Virus record (IMG/VR): IMGVR_UViG_3300031673_000459
Coordinates: 1 to 24,580 of that record
DNA: 24,580 nucleotides
Reading direction: 5' to 3' (one strand)
Source: a virus
The notes under the pieces are model-generated. The model saw only the letters and a program-made list of their open reading frames with translations, was not told the origin of the DNA and did not search any database. The position numbers were made by a program, and so were the translations under genes. Positions 999 to 4,685 of the stretch are shown in pieces (within the stretch, counting starts at the first letter, position 1; each line of letters begins with the position of its first letter).

Positions 999-1045
999 TG
1001 GTGGAGGTGAGCGGGATCGAACCGCCGACCTGTACGTTGCGAAGG
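999..1045 (-). other. Attachment site (attP core): 3' half of a tRNA-Ala(CGC) gene
   Basis: Read on the minus strand this is the 3' part of a tRNA. It holds the anticodon loop TTCGCAA (anticodon CGC), the 3' anticodon stem CGTAC, variable loop AGGTC, a T-arm (GGCGG-TTCGATC-CCGCT), the 3' acceptor strand CACCTCC, discriminator A and encoded CCA. The T at position 70 would make the G3-U70 pair that marks alanine tRNAs. The sequence on the 5' side of the loop does not complete the anticodon stem, and there is no D-arm or 5' acceptor strand, so this is a fragment. A tRNA 3' fragment beside a tyrosine integrase is the classic att signature. Phage genes on both sides favour attP of a phage genome over a prophage-host junction, but a neighbouring prophage on the left cannot be excluded. 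Confidence 0.8.
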
Positions 1046-1060
1046 CATCGCGCCCACAAA

Positions 1061-1130: not shown

Positions 1131-1607
1131 TTAATGCGAATCATCCCATGATAATCGAATATTAAATTCATTGCATTGTTTTAAAATTATACTTAAAACT
1201 TTCTTACCAGGTTTACCAAACAGATGAAGTCTTATATTTTTATCTGAAAAGTATGTTTTATAAACCAGCAGTTGCCCTATTCCATTTTTCCACTGTTTTA
1301 CATTTTTAACTTCAATAATTTCTTTAGGCGTTAATATATCTATATAACCAGCTTTGACTTTTACTTCTGACTTTATTTGTTTTGAGTCATATCTATTCTT
1401 TAATTCAATTATTAAACAATCACATACTTTTGTTTCAGTGGAATTATAAGATCTTAATCTTGTAGTTTCTAACTGTTTTTGTCTTCGCATGGCTTTATAG
1501 TAAGCAGATTTACCTCTTCCAAAGTATTCTCTTTTAAATTTTTTACTATTAGGAGGGTCTCGATATTGAGTAATCCATCTTCCATCTTTTAGTTTATGTA
1601 CGCTCAT
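1131..1607 (-). CDS. Integrase-type arm-binding domain fused to a PD-(D/E)XK-like nuclease domain
   Basis: 158 aa from an ATG with a good ribosome site (GGGAGG, 5 bases upstream); the longer frame beginning at 1685 lacks one. Residues 1-55 closely match the N-terminus of the adjacent integrase (shared LKDGRW, QYRDP, REYFGRG and RSY), which in such integrases is the arm-site DNA-binding domain. Instead of a catalytic recombinase, residues 75-158 carry GYID(90), EIIEVK (E99, K101) and a GQLLVY helix (Q112), a layout like the D...ExK...Q core of PD-(D/E)XK nucleases. The gene is visibly AT-rich whereas the integrase is GC-rich, suggesting separate acquisition. It sits between attP and int on the same strand as int. 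A nuclease aimed at att arm sites, or a regulator of integration, are both possible. The domain reading is by eye; the nuclease activity is inferred. Confidence 0.65.
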   Translation of the reverse strand: MSVHKLKDGRWITQYRDPPNSKKFKREYFGRGKSAYYKAMRRQKQLETTRLRSYNSTETKVCDCLIIELKNRYDSKQIKSEVKVKAGYIDILTPKEIIEVKNVKQWKNGIGQLLVYKTYFSDKNIRLHLFGKPGKKVLSIILKQCNEFNIRLSWDDSH

Positions 1608-1756: not shown

Positions 1757-2821
1757 TCAAGATTCTGTTTTTCCGGGGAGATCCAGGGCCGGCAGGTTGG
1801 AAATAGCATTGCGATGAGCGGCAAGGTCGGTGTGCTGGTAGATCCGGGTCGTGGTGTCGGTGCGGCTGTGGCCCAGGATTTCGGAAGTGGATTTAAGGTC
1901 CCCGCCGCCGGATAGGATCCGGGTGGCAAAGGTGTGGCGGAAGGCATAGGGAGTGAGCCGGCGGGTGATGCCGGCTTTTTTTTTGGCATGCGCCAGGGCC
2001 GTTCGGATGCTTTTGACCGGCCTGCCATTAAAGGTAACGATGTGATTGGATGAAAAATGCTCGTTTTCGGCGTCTTTTTCATCCCAAACCTTCAGGAGCT
2101 CCGCGAAATCCGGATGAAGCGGCACGATCCGGAATGGCGGGCCCCCCTTCTTCGAAGATCTGACCAGGATGGTCTTCTGATCCCAGTCGATGTCGGTCCA
2201 TTTGAGGCTGAAAAGCTCTTTGCCGGGCCGGAGTCCGGTGTAATAGCTGATGACCAGGGCACGGGTCACATGATCCGGGGTGTGGTCGAGCAATTTCCGG
2301 ATCTCCTGGTGAGTGACGGGCTGAATGATGGCGTCATCGCGTTTGGGACTCGAGTAGCCGTTTACAGGATTGCGTTTGATGATCTCGCGCTTTACGGCCC
2401 AGTTGAGGATGGCCTGGATGTCCGAGATCTCCCGGTGGACCGTGGTGCGCTTGACGCCCGTTTTAAGACGTTTCGCCACATATTGATCCATGCGGTGATG
2501 GGTCAGACGCAGGGCCTCGGTCCGGCCTATTTCGGGCAGGATGGAGGCCTTGAGCACGATGGACAGCCGGCGCAGGGTGGTCGTTTCATTGACGCCCAGC
2601 CTGGCCGTTATGTAGCCCGTAGCGAGGTCCTGGAACCAGGGCGACGTCCCTATGGGCGTCCGCCGGGTGTAGGAGCGGACATCGATCGCCTCCTGTCTTT
2701 TCCGGGCCTTTGCCTCTCCATCCAGTCCTCGCCCGAAATATTCCCGGCTGTATTTTCCCGCCCGATCCGGATCCCGATACTGCACAATCCAGCGGCCGTC
2801 TTTCAGGAGGTGCGCACTCAT
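1757..2821 (-). CDS. int: Tyrosine recombinase / phage integrase
   Basis: 354 aa, usual length for a phage integrase. Residues 1-50 are an arm-type DNA-binding domain (LKDGRW, REYFGRG), about 60-160 the SAM-like core-binding domain, and 165-335 the catalytic domain. Visible active-site residues are R198 in TGLRPG, a Lys at 224/225 in SSKKGG, R295 in PYAFRHTF (Tyr replaces the usual first His of HxxR, a common variant), H318 in LGHS and the nucleophile Y328 in TTTRIYQH. It would catalyse site-specific integration and excision between attP (about 1.0 kb) and the host tRNA-Ala gene. Its ATG overlaps the stop of the repressor gene (ATGA), so the two are translationally coupled and expressed leftward together. 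No separate excisionase lies beside it; the small HTH protein at 10834 is a distant candidate. Confidence 0.95.
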   Translation of the reverse strand: MSAHLLKDGRWIVQYRDPDRAGKYSREYFGRGLDGEAKARKRQEAIDVRSYTRRTPIGTSPWFQDLATGYITARLGVNETTTLRRLSIVLKASILPEIGRTEALRLTHHRMDQYVAKRLKTGVKRTTVHREISDIQAILNWAVKREIIKRNPVNGYSSPKRDDAIIQPVTHQEIRKLLDHTPDHVTRALVISYYTGLRPGKELFSLKWTDIDWDQKTILVRSSKKGGPPFRIVPLHPDFAELLKVWDEKDAENEHFSSNHIVTFNGRPVKSIRTALAHAKKKAGITRRLTPYAFRHTFATRILSGGGDLKSTSEILGHSRTDTTTRIYQHTDLAAHRNAISNLPALDLPGKTES

Positions 2822-3264
2822 TCTATCAGCCTAAGCTCCGAAGCACCCCCTCTCTCTCTTATTTTGTTTGATATGAGAAGTGCGCAGTCGAGGAGGCTAT
2901 CCAGGTATTTTTGGGCATGTGCGTAAATGTCCGGATCCAACTGGTCTAAACAACACAACGCCTTGAAACACTTCAGGGTAGTTTCCTTATCCCGGAAGTC
3001 ATGCCCATGCATGACTATGCCTTCGGCGGAGATCGTCGATCCTGGGCCGGATTTGGAGTCCTCGCGGGGTATTCCTGACTGATCTAAGCCAAAATTTTCA
3101 CCAAAGCGGAATTTTGCATATTCCACTGCAGTTTTTGAAGGGAATTTGATACCTCGCTCAATATCTGAGATGCTCTGATATTTTAATCCAAAAATTTGAC
3201 CAAAATCAGTTTGATTCAAACCCATTGATTTTCTTAGTGTTTTGAAGCGTTTGCCGATATCCAT
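2818..3264 (-). CDS. XRE-family transcriptional repressor (CI-like)
   Basis: 148 aa from ATG 3264 (MDIGKRF); a longer frame from 3324 adds an unlikely N-terminus that would run through the operator region. Residues 6-58 form a HTH_3/XRE domain (RFKTLRKSMGLNQTDFGQIF, then YQSISDIERG). The C-terminal 90 residues hold no recognisable S24/LexA-type peptidase motif, so classic RecA-driven self-cleavage is not evident and induction may work differently. It is divergently placed from the Cro-like gene at 3514 and coupled by an ATGA overlap to the integrase, the usual position of a lysogeny repressor. A weak ribosome site (GGAA) precedes the start. Repressor function is inferred from domain and position. 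Confidence 0.8.
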   Translation of the reverse strand: MDIGKRFKTLRKSMGLNQTDFGQIFGLKYQSISDIERGIKFPSKTAVEYAKFRFGENFGLDQSGIPREDSKSGPGSTISAEGIVMHGHDFRDKETTLKCFKALCCLDQLDPDIYAHAQKYLDSLLDCALLISNKIRERGGASELRLIE

Positions 3265-3270
3265 AAAAAT

Positions 3271-3316
3271 AATTCCGCTATATGTTAATTTTTTCCTTGA
3301 CAAATTCCGATATAGG
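3271..3316. promoter_or_regulatory. Operator-like direct repeats in the repressor/early control region
   Basis: AATTCCGCTATATG (3271-3284) and AATTCCGATATAGG (3303-3316) match at 12 of 14 positions and are spaced exactly 32 bp, about three helical turns. They lie immediately upstream of the repressor start, between divergent regulator genes, where repressor operators are expected. Binding by the 2818-3264 product is inferred. Confidence 0.5.
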
Positions 3317-3324
3317 TGTATCAT
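3297..3324 (+). promoter_or_regulatory. Candidate sigma-70 promoter for rightward early transcription
   Basis: A perfect -35 box TTGACA (3297-3302) and a near-consensus -10 box TATCAT (3319-3324) are separated by 16 bp. The second operator-like repeat (3303-3316) lies inside the spacer, so a bound repressor would block it. The transcript would have a leader of about 180 bases before the Cro-like gene, so another promoter closer to that gene is possible. Confidence 0.4.
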
Positions 3325-3789: not shown

Positions 3790-3994
3790 CACGCTGATCG
3801 ACTTTGAAAAAGAGATAAAACTCCTTAAGCAGGATCTTTATGCGGAGCTGCCCAAACGCCGGGTCCGCCAGGGTGCGTATTTTATAGATCATGAGGGTAA
3901 GCGCCAATATTACCTGAGAAAGCCAAAGAATTACCTGAGAAAGCCAAAGAATTACCTGAGAAAGCCAAAGAAGGAAGCCAATGAAAAAGCCTGA
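3749..3994 (+). CDS. Small basic protein with a triplicated 7-residue repeat, unknown function
   Basis: 81 aa from ATG 3749 (MALKPMG), preceded by GAGGAG. The in-frame upstream start at 3713 has no ribosome site, and an internal ATG at 3764 is possible. The N-terminal half (ERAINTLIDFEKEIKLLKQD) looks helical, perhaps a coiled coil. The C-terminus is strongly basic and holds three exact copies of YLRKPKN-type heptads encoded by a 21-bp tandem repeat. No family recognised. It overlaps the Cro-like gene and is followed by a strong hairpin terminator, so it closes the first early operon. The basic tail could bind nucleic acid, but this is a guess. Confidence 0.55.
   Translation: MALKPMGPIERAINTLIDFEKEIKLLKQDLYAELPKRRVRQGAYFIDHEGKRQYYLRKPKNYLRKPKNYLRKPKKEANEKA
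3909..3971 (+). repeat. 21-bp perfect tandem repeat, three copies
   Basis: ATTACCTGAGAAAGCCAAAGA occurs three times head to tail with no mismatch (3909-3929, 3930-3950, 3951-3971). Each unit is exactly seven codons, so copy-number change keeps the frame of the 3749-3994 gene. Perfect identity suggests recent expansion, by slippage or recombination. Confidence 0.95.
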
Positions 3995-4131: not shown

Positions 4132-4276
4132 TAGATAAATAATGAATGTTTCTATGAATTATTTCCTATTAACCTTAACTAAGTGAAAAGGGACCGCCGG
4201 CGAGCCGGATCCGCGTGGCGCGAGCCGGGACTGCAGCGCGAAACCGACCACAACATATAGGAGAGGAGAGTTAGAC

Positions 4277-4486
4277 ATGGAACAAGCCGAACTGGAAAAC
4301 CGGTTTACGTACCACCCGCCCAAAGATGATCAGCCTGAAAAATATGAGATGATCCGGAGTAGCGCCCTGGATTTTGCCTTGTTCCTGAATAGGGCGTGTC
4401 CGGACTCCCGGGAAAAGAGCATCGCCATGACCCATTTGGACCAGGTGGTGATGTTTGCCAATGCCTCAATAGCCAGGCGGGAATGA
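4277..4486 (+). CDS. acb2: Acb2-family anti-CBASS protein (cyclic-nucleotide sponge)
   Basis: 69 aa, ATG preceded by GGAGAGGAG. The sequence fits the Acb2/Tad1 hairpin domain: N-terminal FTYHPP (10-15), then DQPEKYEMIR (18-27), a helical middle, the CPDSREKSIA signature (41-50), and a C-terminal helix ending ANASIARRE. Known Acb2 proteins are small phage proteins that assemble into hexamers and bind the cyclic di- and trinucleotide messengers made by CBASS cyclases, so the effectors are not switched on. Tad1 proteins share this fold but are longer and block Thoeris signals; the short length favours Acb2. It is the first gene of an early operon, as expected for a counter-defence protein needed soon after infection. 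Ligand range cannot be read from sequence. Confidence 0.85.
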   Translation: MEQAELENRFTYHPPKDDQPEKYEMIRSSALDFALFLNRACPDSREKSIAMTHLDQVVMFANASIARRE

Positions 4487-4487
4487 C

Positions 4488-4685
4488 ATGGCATCGTGTG
4501 TGATATGTCATCGAGATGAACCGGGCCGGAGGCCGCAGGATCCGGGCAGGGATTTAATCTGCTCAAGGTGTGTGCAGAAATTAGTTAATGCCACATCCCT
4601 ACAGATAACGGCCATGTATCAAAACGCCCGGGATCTCGGTATGGATGAAAATGCCGAGCTCCTGAAACCATTTGTCAAGGAGTAA
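4488..4685 (+). CDS. Small zinc-ribbon protein, unknown function
   Basis: 65 aa, starting two bases after the Acb2 stop, so translation is probably coupled. Two CxxC pairs are visible (CVIC at residues 4-7 and CSRC at about 25-28), enough for one zinc-binding ribbon or knuckle. The C-terminal 35 residues look helical (LQITAMYQNARDLGMDENAE). No family recognised. Its tight linkage to acb2 makes an early host-takeover or counter-defence role thinkable, but nothing in the sequence shows it. Confidence 0.65.
   Translation: MASCVICHRDEPGRRPQDPGRDLICSRCVQKLVNATSLQITAMYQNARDLGMDENAELLKPFVKE

Follow-up and report, generated by a model that had tools for sequence, protein, structure and literature searches.

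The window, an IMG/VR record that is linear and 24,580 bases long, encodes a 158-residue protein in which an integrase arm-binding-type domain is joined to a predicted PD-(D/E)XK nuclease module, the gene lying between a tyrosine integrase gene (int) and attP. The module is a member of a wider family that is fused to many DNA-binding domains resembling those of neighbouring genes, a pattern that was invisible to the sequence-only reading that this analysis follows up. The interpretation we prefer, and hold tentatively, is that the gene is a homing-type mobile nuclease cassette that shares the DNA-binding domain of its neighbour and specifies a site-directed endonuclease. If this is true, a phage nuclease aims itself by way of the DNA-binding domain of the neighbouring gene, different DNA-targeting domains have been placed on one cutting module in nature, and a general and testable rule, which is to read the adjoining gene, could be used to predict what dozens of unnamed nucleases target.

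An integrase-type domain on a gene beside attP

The features of the locus are as follows.

932–947, no strand assigned: perfect palindrome TGGTAATACATTACCA, past the attP core, a putative arm-type site
999–1057, minus strand: attP core, tmRNA/tRNA 3′-end-like, conserved with the relative L079
1115–1767, minus strand: insert of 653 bp, missing in L079, which has 16 bp between the same flanks
1131–1607, minus strand: fusion gene, 158 aa (integrase arm-binding-type domain plus predicted PD-(D/E)XK module)
1134–1439, minus strand: nuclease module, residues 57–158, with E58, E81, D90, E99, K101, Q112 and Y116
1443–1607, minus strand: N-terminal domain (N-domain), residues 1–55, homologous to integrase N-termini; modelled as strands followed by the start of a long helix
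1620–1696, minus strand: c4-2 antisense-RNA-like element, adjoining the fusion gene on its 5′ side
1735–1742, no strand assigned: TGTGACAC half-site at the edge of the insert on the int side, inside a 15-nt exact match to the putative arm region of the phage contig L012
1757–2821, minus strand: tyrosine integrase, 354 aa (phrog_1, PF00589)
2818–3324, minus strand: HTH repressor upstream of int, with a 4-bp overlap with the int start

The fusion ORF runs from an ATG at 1607 to a stop at 1131, with a GGGAGG ribosome site just upstream, and the sequence-only reading had its coordinates, strand and frame right. That reading had also placed the gene beside attP, in agreement with the alignment of the tmRNA/tRNA 3′-end-like stretch to L079, where int runs directly into it. 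A small gene elsewhere in the window (3912–3974) contains three tandem copies of a unit encoding YLRKPKN/K, which is present as one copy in L079.

The first 54 or 55 residues of the fusion protein align with the start of the adjacent integrase at 54–59% identity (E 6e-15 to 8e-16), confirming that this domain is a paralogue of the neighbouring arm-binding domain, and residues 1–55 are homologous to the arm-binding domain of phrog_1 tyrosine integrases. Unlike those integrases, the protein lacks the core-binding and catalytic domains; its alignment to the integrase covers residues 1–55 only, it has no PF00589 match, and by that measure it is not a tyrosine recombinase. An AT-rich fusion gene does indeed stand beside a GC-rich integrase gene, as had been noticed at the outset (27.9% versus 58.7% GC). 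Because the part encoding the N-domain is AT-rich as well (30.9% GC) and the two proteins are only 54–59% identical there, this part is no recent copy of the window's own integrase gene. A search upstream of the window's fusion for a DNA-level duplicate of the integrase 5′ leader found none that was convincing, in contrast to a family member, L019, in which the leader region is duplicated too.

The earlier reading had further supposed that the protein reads the same arm sites as the integrase. We found that the window N-domain scores best against the integrases of L079, L003 and L084 and of the window itself, and that in trees of N-domains, which comprise 54 columns and groups picked after a first tree, the N-domain of the fusion in L012 groups with the integrase of L012 (95/95). 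Placing the window and L012 N-domains in one clade was disfavoured (p-AU 0.040; 0.067 for all three fusions). These results are suggestive, but not firm, as to whether the N-domain tracks the resident integrase. GGTAATAC-type repeats flank attP in L003, L084 and L095, with a similar palindrome in the att region of the window, and from their position and symmetry we infer that these repeats are arm sites. Recognition of the same arm sites is thus plausible, the argument being an indirect one from the grouping of the L012 domain and from the affinity of the window domain to integrases with GGTAATAC-type repeats. At the insert border, GTGTCACATTTTTGT (1735–1749) matches the putative arm region of L012 exactly over 15 nt in the opposite orientation; with an E value of 1.5 over all loci, this match, which includes TGTGACAC, is suggestive only.

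Predicted fold and conserved residues of the nuclease module

An AlphaFold2 model of the fusion protein (pLDDT 93.8, pTM 0.73) contains a helix (residues 33–69), three strands (79–84, 87–92 and 96–102), a second helix (103–117) and a further strand (124–130), so that the alpha-beta-beta-beta-alpha-beta order of the PD-(D/E)XK core is present in the model. Foldseek against the PDB returned no match below E 0.001; VIA-align applied to the Foldseek candidates gave clear matches for residues 52–158, the best being NucS (2vld, Z 11.2) and an EndoMS–DNA structure (5gke, Z 10.7), with Can2, Card1, CdiA-CT, XisH (2okf, Z 8.7; 2inb, Z 8.5) and many restriction enzymes among the further matches. The PD-(D/E)XK prediction is therefore borne out by structure modelling, which points to a NucS/restriction-endonuclease-like fold rather than to another one. 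Although the C-terminal domain of NucS/EndoMS is the best structural match to the module (Z 11.2), it differs from the fusion in sequence (~13% identity) and in its N-terminal domain, and the NucS/EndoMS family profile NF003270 scores 12.5 bits against a cut-off of 216. The module has no match above cut-off in Pfam or NCBIfam and is unnamed in both. Matches to Pfam Tox-REase-7 and SfsA and to Cas4b of PADLOC were weak or below cut-off and were set aside, as were matches to ubiquitin variants (E 0.14), which we regard as noise in sequence searches of solved structures that otherwise gave nothing useful.

Five residues, D90, E99, K101, Q112 and Y116, are invariant in all 40 non-redundant modules, and two more are nearly so (E81 in 39 and E58 in 37); since the search patterns contained D90, E99, K101 and W106-K107, only E58, E81, Q112 and Y116 are largely independent evidence. 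The four residues singled out earlier as the nuclease-like core (D90, E99, K101 and Q112) thus stand at the positions given for them and are among the invariant ones. By its sequence the module is of the motif kind ending in QxxxY (Q112xxxY116). The fusion protein is a predicted metal-dependent endonuclease. We considered and rejected a secreted toxin as an explanation of the window protein, which has a DNA-binding domain at its start and no visible signal.

Empty sites and recurrence of the fusion

The integrase of L079 is 91% identical to that of the window, and the alignment of the two genomes runs to 1768 and resumes at 1114, with 16 bp in L079 and 653 bp in the window between these points; the last residues of the window integrase differ from those of L079 at the insert. 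Most other related integrase loci with downstream sequence also pass from int to the tRNA-like 3′ end without such a gene. Because L079 and most related loci lack it, the insert between int and attP is probably derived.

The same fusion is encoded by two more phages, L012 (62.6-kb contig) and L037 (22.4-kb contig), which argues against its being a chance product, and the three nuclease modules fall into a single clade (UFBoot 100); a phylum scan of 395 genomes yielded no new int-nuclease fusion. L012 provides the recurrence beside another integrase that the sequence-only reading had proposed to look for, in the same int–fusion–attP order. There the fusion gene has a 4-bp overlap with the integrase stop; its own stop codon is overlapped by an 11-bp inverted repeat, TGTGACACATT-a-AATGTGTCACA, after which comes a tRNA 3′ end. 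The C-terminal LRQAINRIPSLGL of the L012 fusion matches integrase C-tails (0 of 2000 shuffles scored as high), which suggests that in L012 the nuclease replaced the middle of an integrase copy; the window protein has no such tail. The L037 gene sits between a small HTH gene and the pre-portal genes, in a variable late-gene slot that is occupied by unrelated genes in relatives and by an HNH-like ORF in L125, and no full integrase was found in this ~22-kb contig.

Occupied and empty alleles of one site, as expected of a homing endonuclease gene, are accordingly seen both in the window versus L079 and at the L037 slot. A homing element had been among the functions first suggested, and this part of the suggestion gains support from the relative with an empty site, the position of the insert next to putative arm sites, the foreign composition and the polymorphic sites; together with the gene debris described below, these observations favour homing.

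The same loci bear on the idea that the protein is an integration or excision factor, which would join the integrase complex through its arm-binding domain and nick or bend DNA, biasing direction, in the manner of XisH, a factor of the PD-(D/E)XK fold to which control of fdxN element excision is ascribed. The gene does lie between int and attP in two phages, XisH is among the structural matches (2okf and 2inb) and the L012 fusion has an integrase-like C-tail. However, Z scores of about 8.5 are common to many nucleases of this fold, the C-tail is absent from the window protein, the close relative L079 has an intact int–attP module without the gene, as most relatives lack it, and L037 carries the gene away from any integrase. 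We therefore regard such a role as highly improbable, and the earlier suggestion that the protein modulates integration found no direct support, the L037 contig being without a full integrase.

Remnants in L019, L028, L081 and L083 look like traces of insertion or duplication at gene borders. In L028, ~20 bp past the nuclease stop, there remain the 50 C-terminal residues of a protein related (88% identical) to the one encoded next to the nuclease in L019, which look like debris of a displaced gene. L081 encodes a divergent homologue of the module (4275–4667, E 9e-10) that begins like a signal peptide and has E-x-D in place of E-x-K; this ORF lies between the repressor and int and overlaps a 35-bp remnant of the int 5′ end. 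In L083 the int 5′ end is present a second time, as a 67-bp copy of 85% identity (3925–3991) directly after the repressor, with small unrelated genes between this copy and the full int. The L083 copy is what would be expected if cassettes enter int borders and duplicate the int 5′ end, in which case the fusion could be an accidental in-frame product and the gene a passenger (moron) with a role unrelated to the integrase, and the L037 site, as a general variable slot, fits such an origin as well. But the active site is intact in three divergent fusions, the L012 N-domain is matched to the resident integrase, and a neighbour-domain pattern extends across the family (13 of 35 proteins, see below), and we think a passenger improbable.

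Neighbour-like domains in the family, and known systems

The module occurs in cyanobacterial plasmids and chromosomes, in phages and in Desulfobacterales. For 35 non-redundant proteins with a sufficient N-terminal part we compared the part preceding the module with the neighbouring ORFs, with 336 other genes from the same loci as controls. Among these proteins, drawn from pattern-selected matches with a 70% identity filter, 13 of 35 have a paralogue of their N-terminal part in an adjacent same-strand gene, as opposed to 11 of the 336 control genes (Fisher p 6e-9). All 13 neighbour paralogues are on the same strand and most are directly adjacent; a detectable neighbour paralogue is absent in the remaining 22. 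KilA-N genes in Desulfobacterota genomes have a neighbour paralogue in 1 case out of 23 (p 0.0045), which answers, for the one phylum sampled, the worry that such regulators simply occur in arrays. The neighbour-like domains are of the KilA-N (L018, L039 and L040), Bro-N (L009), HTH-like (L042 and L061) and integrase (window and L012) types. Filamentous cyanobacteria commonly encode proteins joining KilA-N to the nuclease (L043–L057), most of which have no neighbour paralogue; that these proteins are so widespread there argues that they may have a stable chromosomal role, which counts against our preferred reading.

According to the homing interpretation, the protein would be brought to arm-type repeats next to attP by its N-terminal domain, and its C-terminal PD-(D/E)XK module would then cut the DNA close by in a metal-dependent reaction. 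The gene and its c4-like antisense RNA would constitute a mobile cassette between int and attP, beside the sites to be recognised, such that in a mixed infection the int–attP region of an empty relative would be cut and would acquire the cassette by repair from the genome that carries it. As the module repeatedly carries a relative of the N-terminal DNA-binding domain of the adjacent gene, it probably shares the target sites of its neighbour. The shared int–fusion–attP order in L012, the neighbour pattern in 13 of 35 proteins and the variable slot in L037 speak for this interpretation, whereas the lack of a full integrase in L037, the 22 of 35 proteins without a neighbour paralogue and the palindrome at the window's own attP speak against it. 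Because a perfect palindrome of what is presumed to be the arm class is still present there, self-cutting must be avoided, and candidate routes are masking by the integrase, c4 control or destruction of the cut site by the insert. With less confidence, we propose that a mobile module gains targets by adopting DNA-binding domains related to that of the adjoining gene, whichever this may be, and that next to an integrase it could become a nuclease directed at attachment sites, homing into the attP region of related phages or destroying it, its domain being re-matched to the resident integrase. A nuclease of this kind would give temperate phages a novel means of competing for integration modules or of spreading into them.

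KilA-N proteins of moumouvirus and mimivirus and proteins of Tetraselmis virus 1 and a Feldmannia virus match the module at their C-termini (27–36% identity, E 1e-8 to 4e-7), but their N-terminal domain is KilA-N or another type rather than integrase-type and they have no att site context. Homing endonucleases of the I-Ssp6803I type are small PD-(D/E)XK enzymes, as is the fusion protein, whose gene is probably likewise mobile with empty alleles; unlike them, the fusion lies outside introns and has a separate, imported DNA-binding domain, and I-Ssp6803I was absent among the matches. Shuffling of KilA-N domains was reportedly treated by Iyer and colleagues in 2002. Our search of the open literature found no description of the nuclease module. 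As far as the literature searched goes, the earlier statement that no such system has been described holds for this exact layout.

The closest parallel in design is Odn of the phage ICP1, a chimeric nuclease with a RepA-like domain that, as a RepA mimic, cuts PLE replication origins (PMC8263062). Both are chimeric phage nucleases: the DNA-binding domain of Odn resembles another element's initiator, the sites of which it cuts, and the fusion has a DNA-binding domain in common with another mobile-element DNA-binding protein, the integrase. Odn differs in belonging to a GIY-YIG-related family of putative homing endonucleases and in targeting origins, whereas the fusion, encoded beside attP, combines a PD-(D/E)XK module and an integrase arm-binding-type domain, the latter being shared by a neighbour in the same genome. 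Odn is the precedent for the main alternative to homing, a weapon against competitors aimed at the arm sites of phages or satellites of the same specificity and wrecking their attP region, with the c4-like RNA keeping the nuclease off in the lysogen and the integrase shielding its own sites. The N-domain belongs with integrases that have GGTAATAC-type repeats, a c4-like RNA lies directly upstream of the fusion gene and neighbour domains are shared across the family, all of which would suit a weapon. Yet a palindrome of this type is present in the phage's own attP, no candidate victim element was identified, and insertion beside the gene's own presumed target fits homing better, and we judge this use of the nuclease to be somewhat unlikely. 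The homing and anti-competitor readings can be stages of one history, as the authors of the Odn study relate Odn to putative homing endonucleases (PMC8263062).

The c4-2-like element upstream of the fusion gene is a full-length match that scores 39.7 bits, where the gathering score is 41 (RF02944; E 5e-9 in the window), and no c4 RNA reaches the gathering score in 12 other loci. In P1 and P7, c4 is the silencer of an antirepressor, and by analogy the c4-like RNA would be a reasonable candidate for an off switch of the fusion gene. c4 is also listed for phages (PMC2864571). Slightly upstream of the element we spotted by eye a run of 9 nt (ACAGCAACG, minus strand) that complements part of it.
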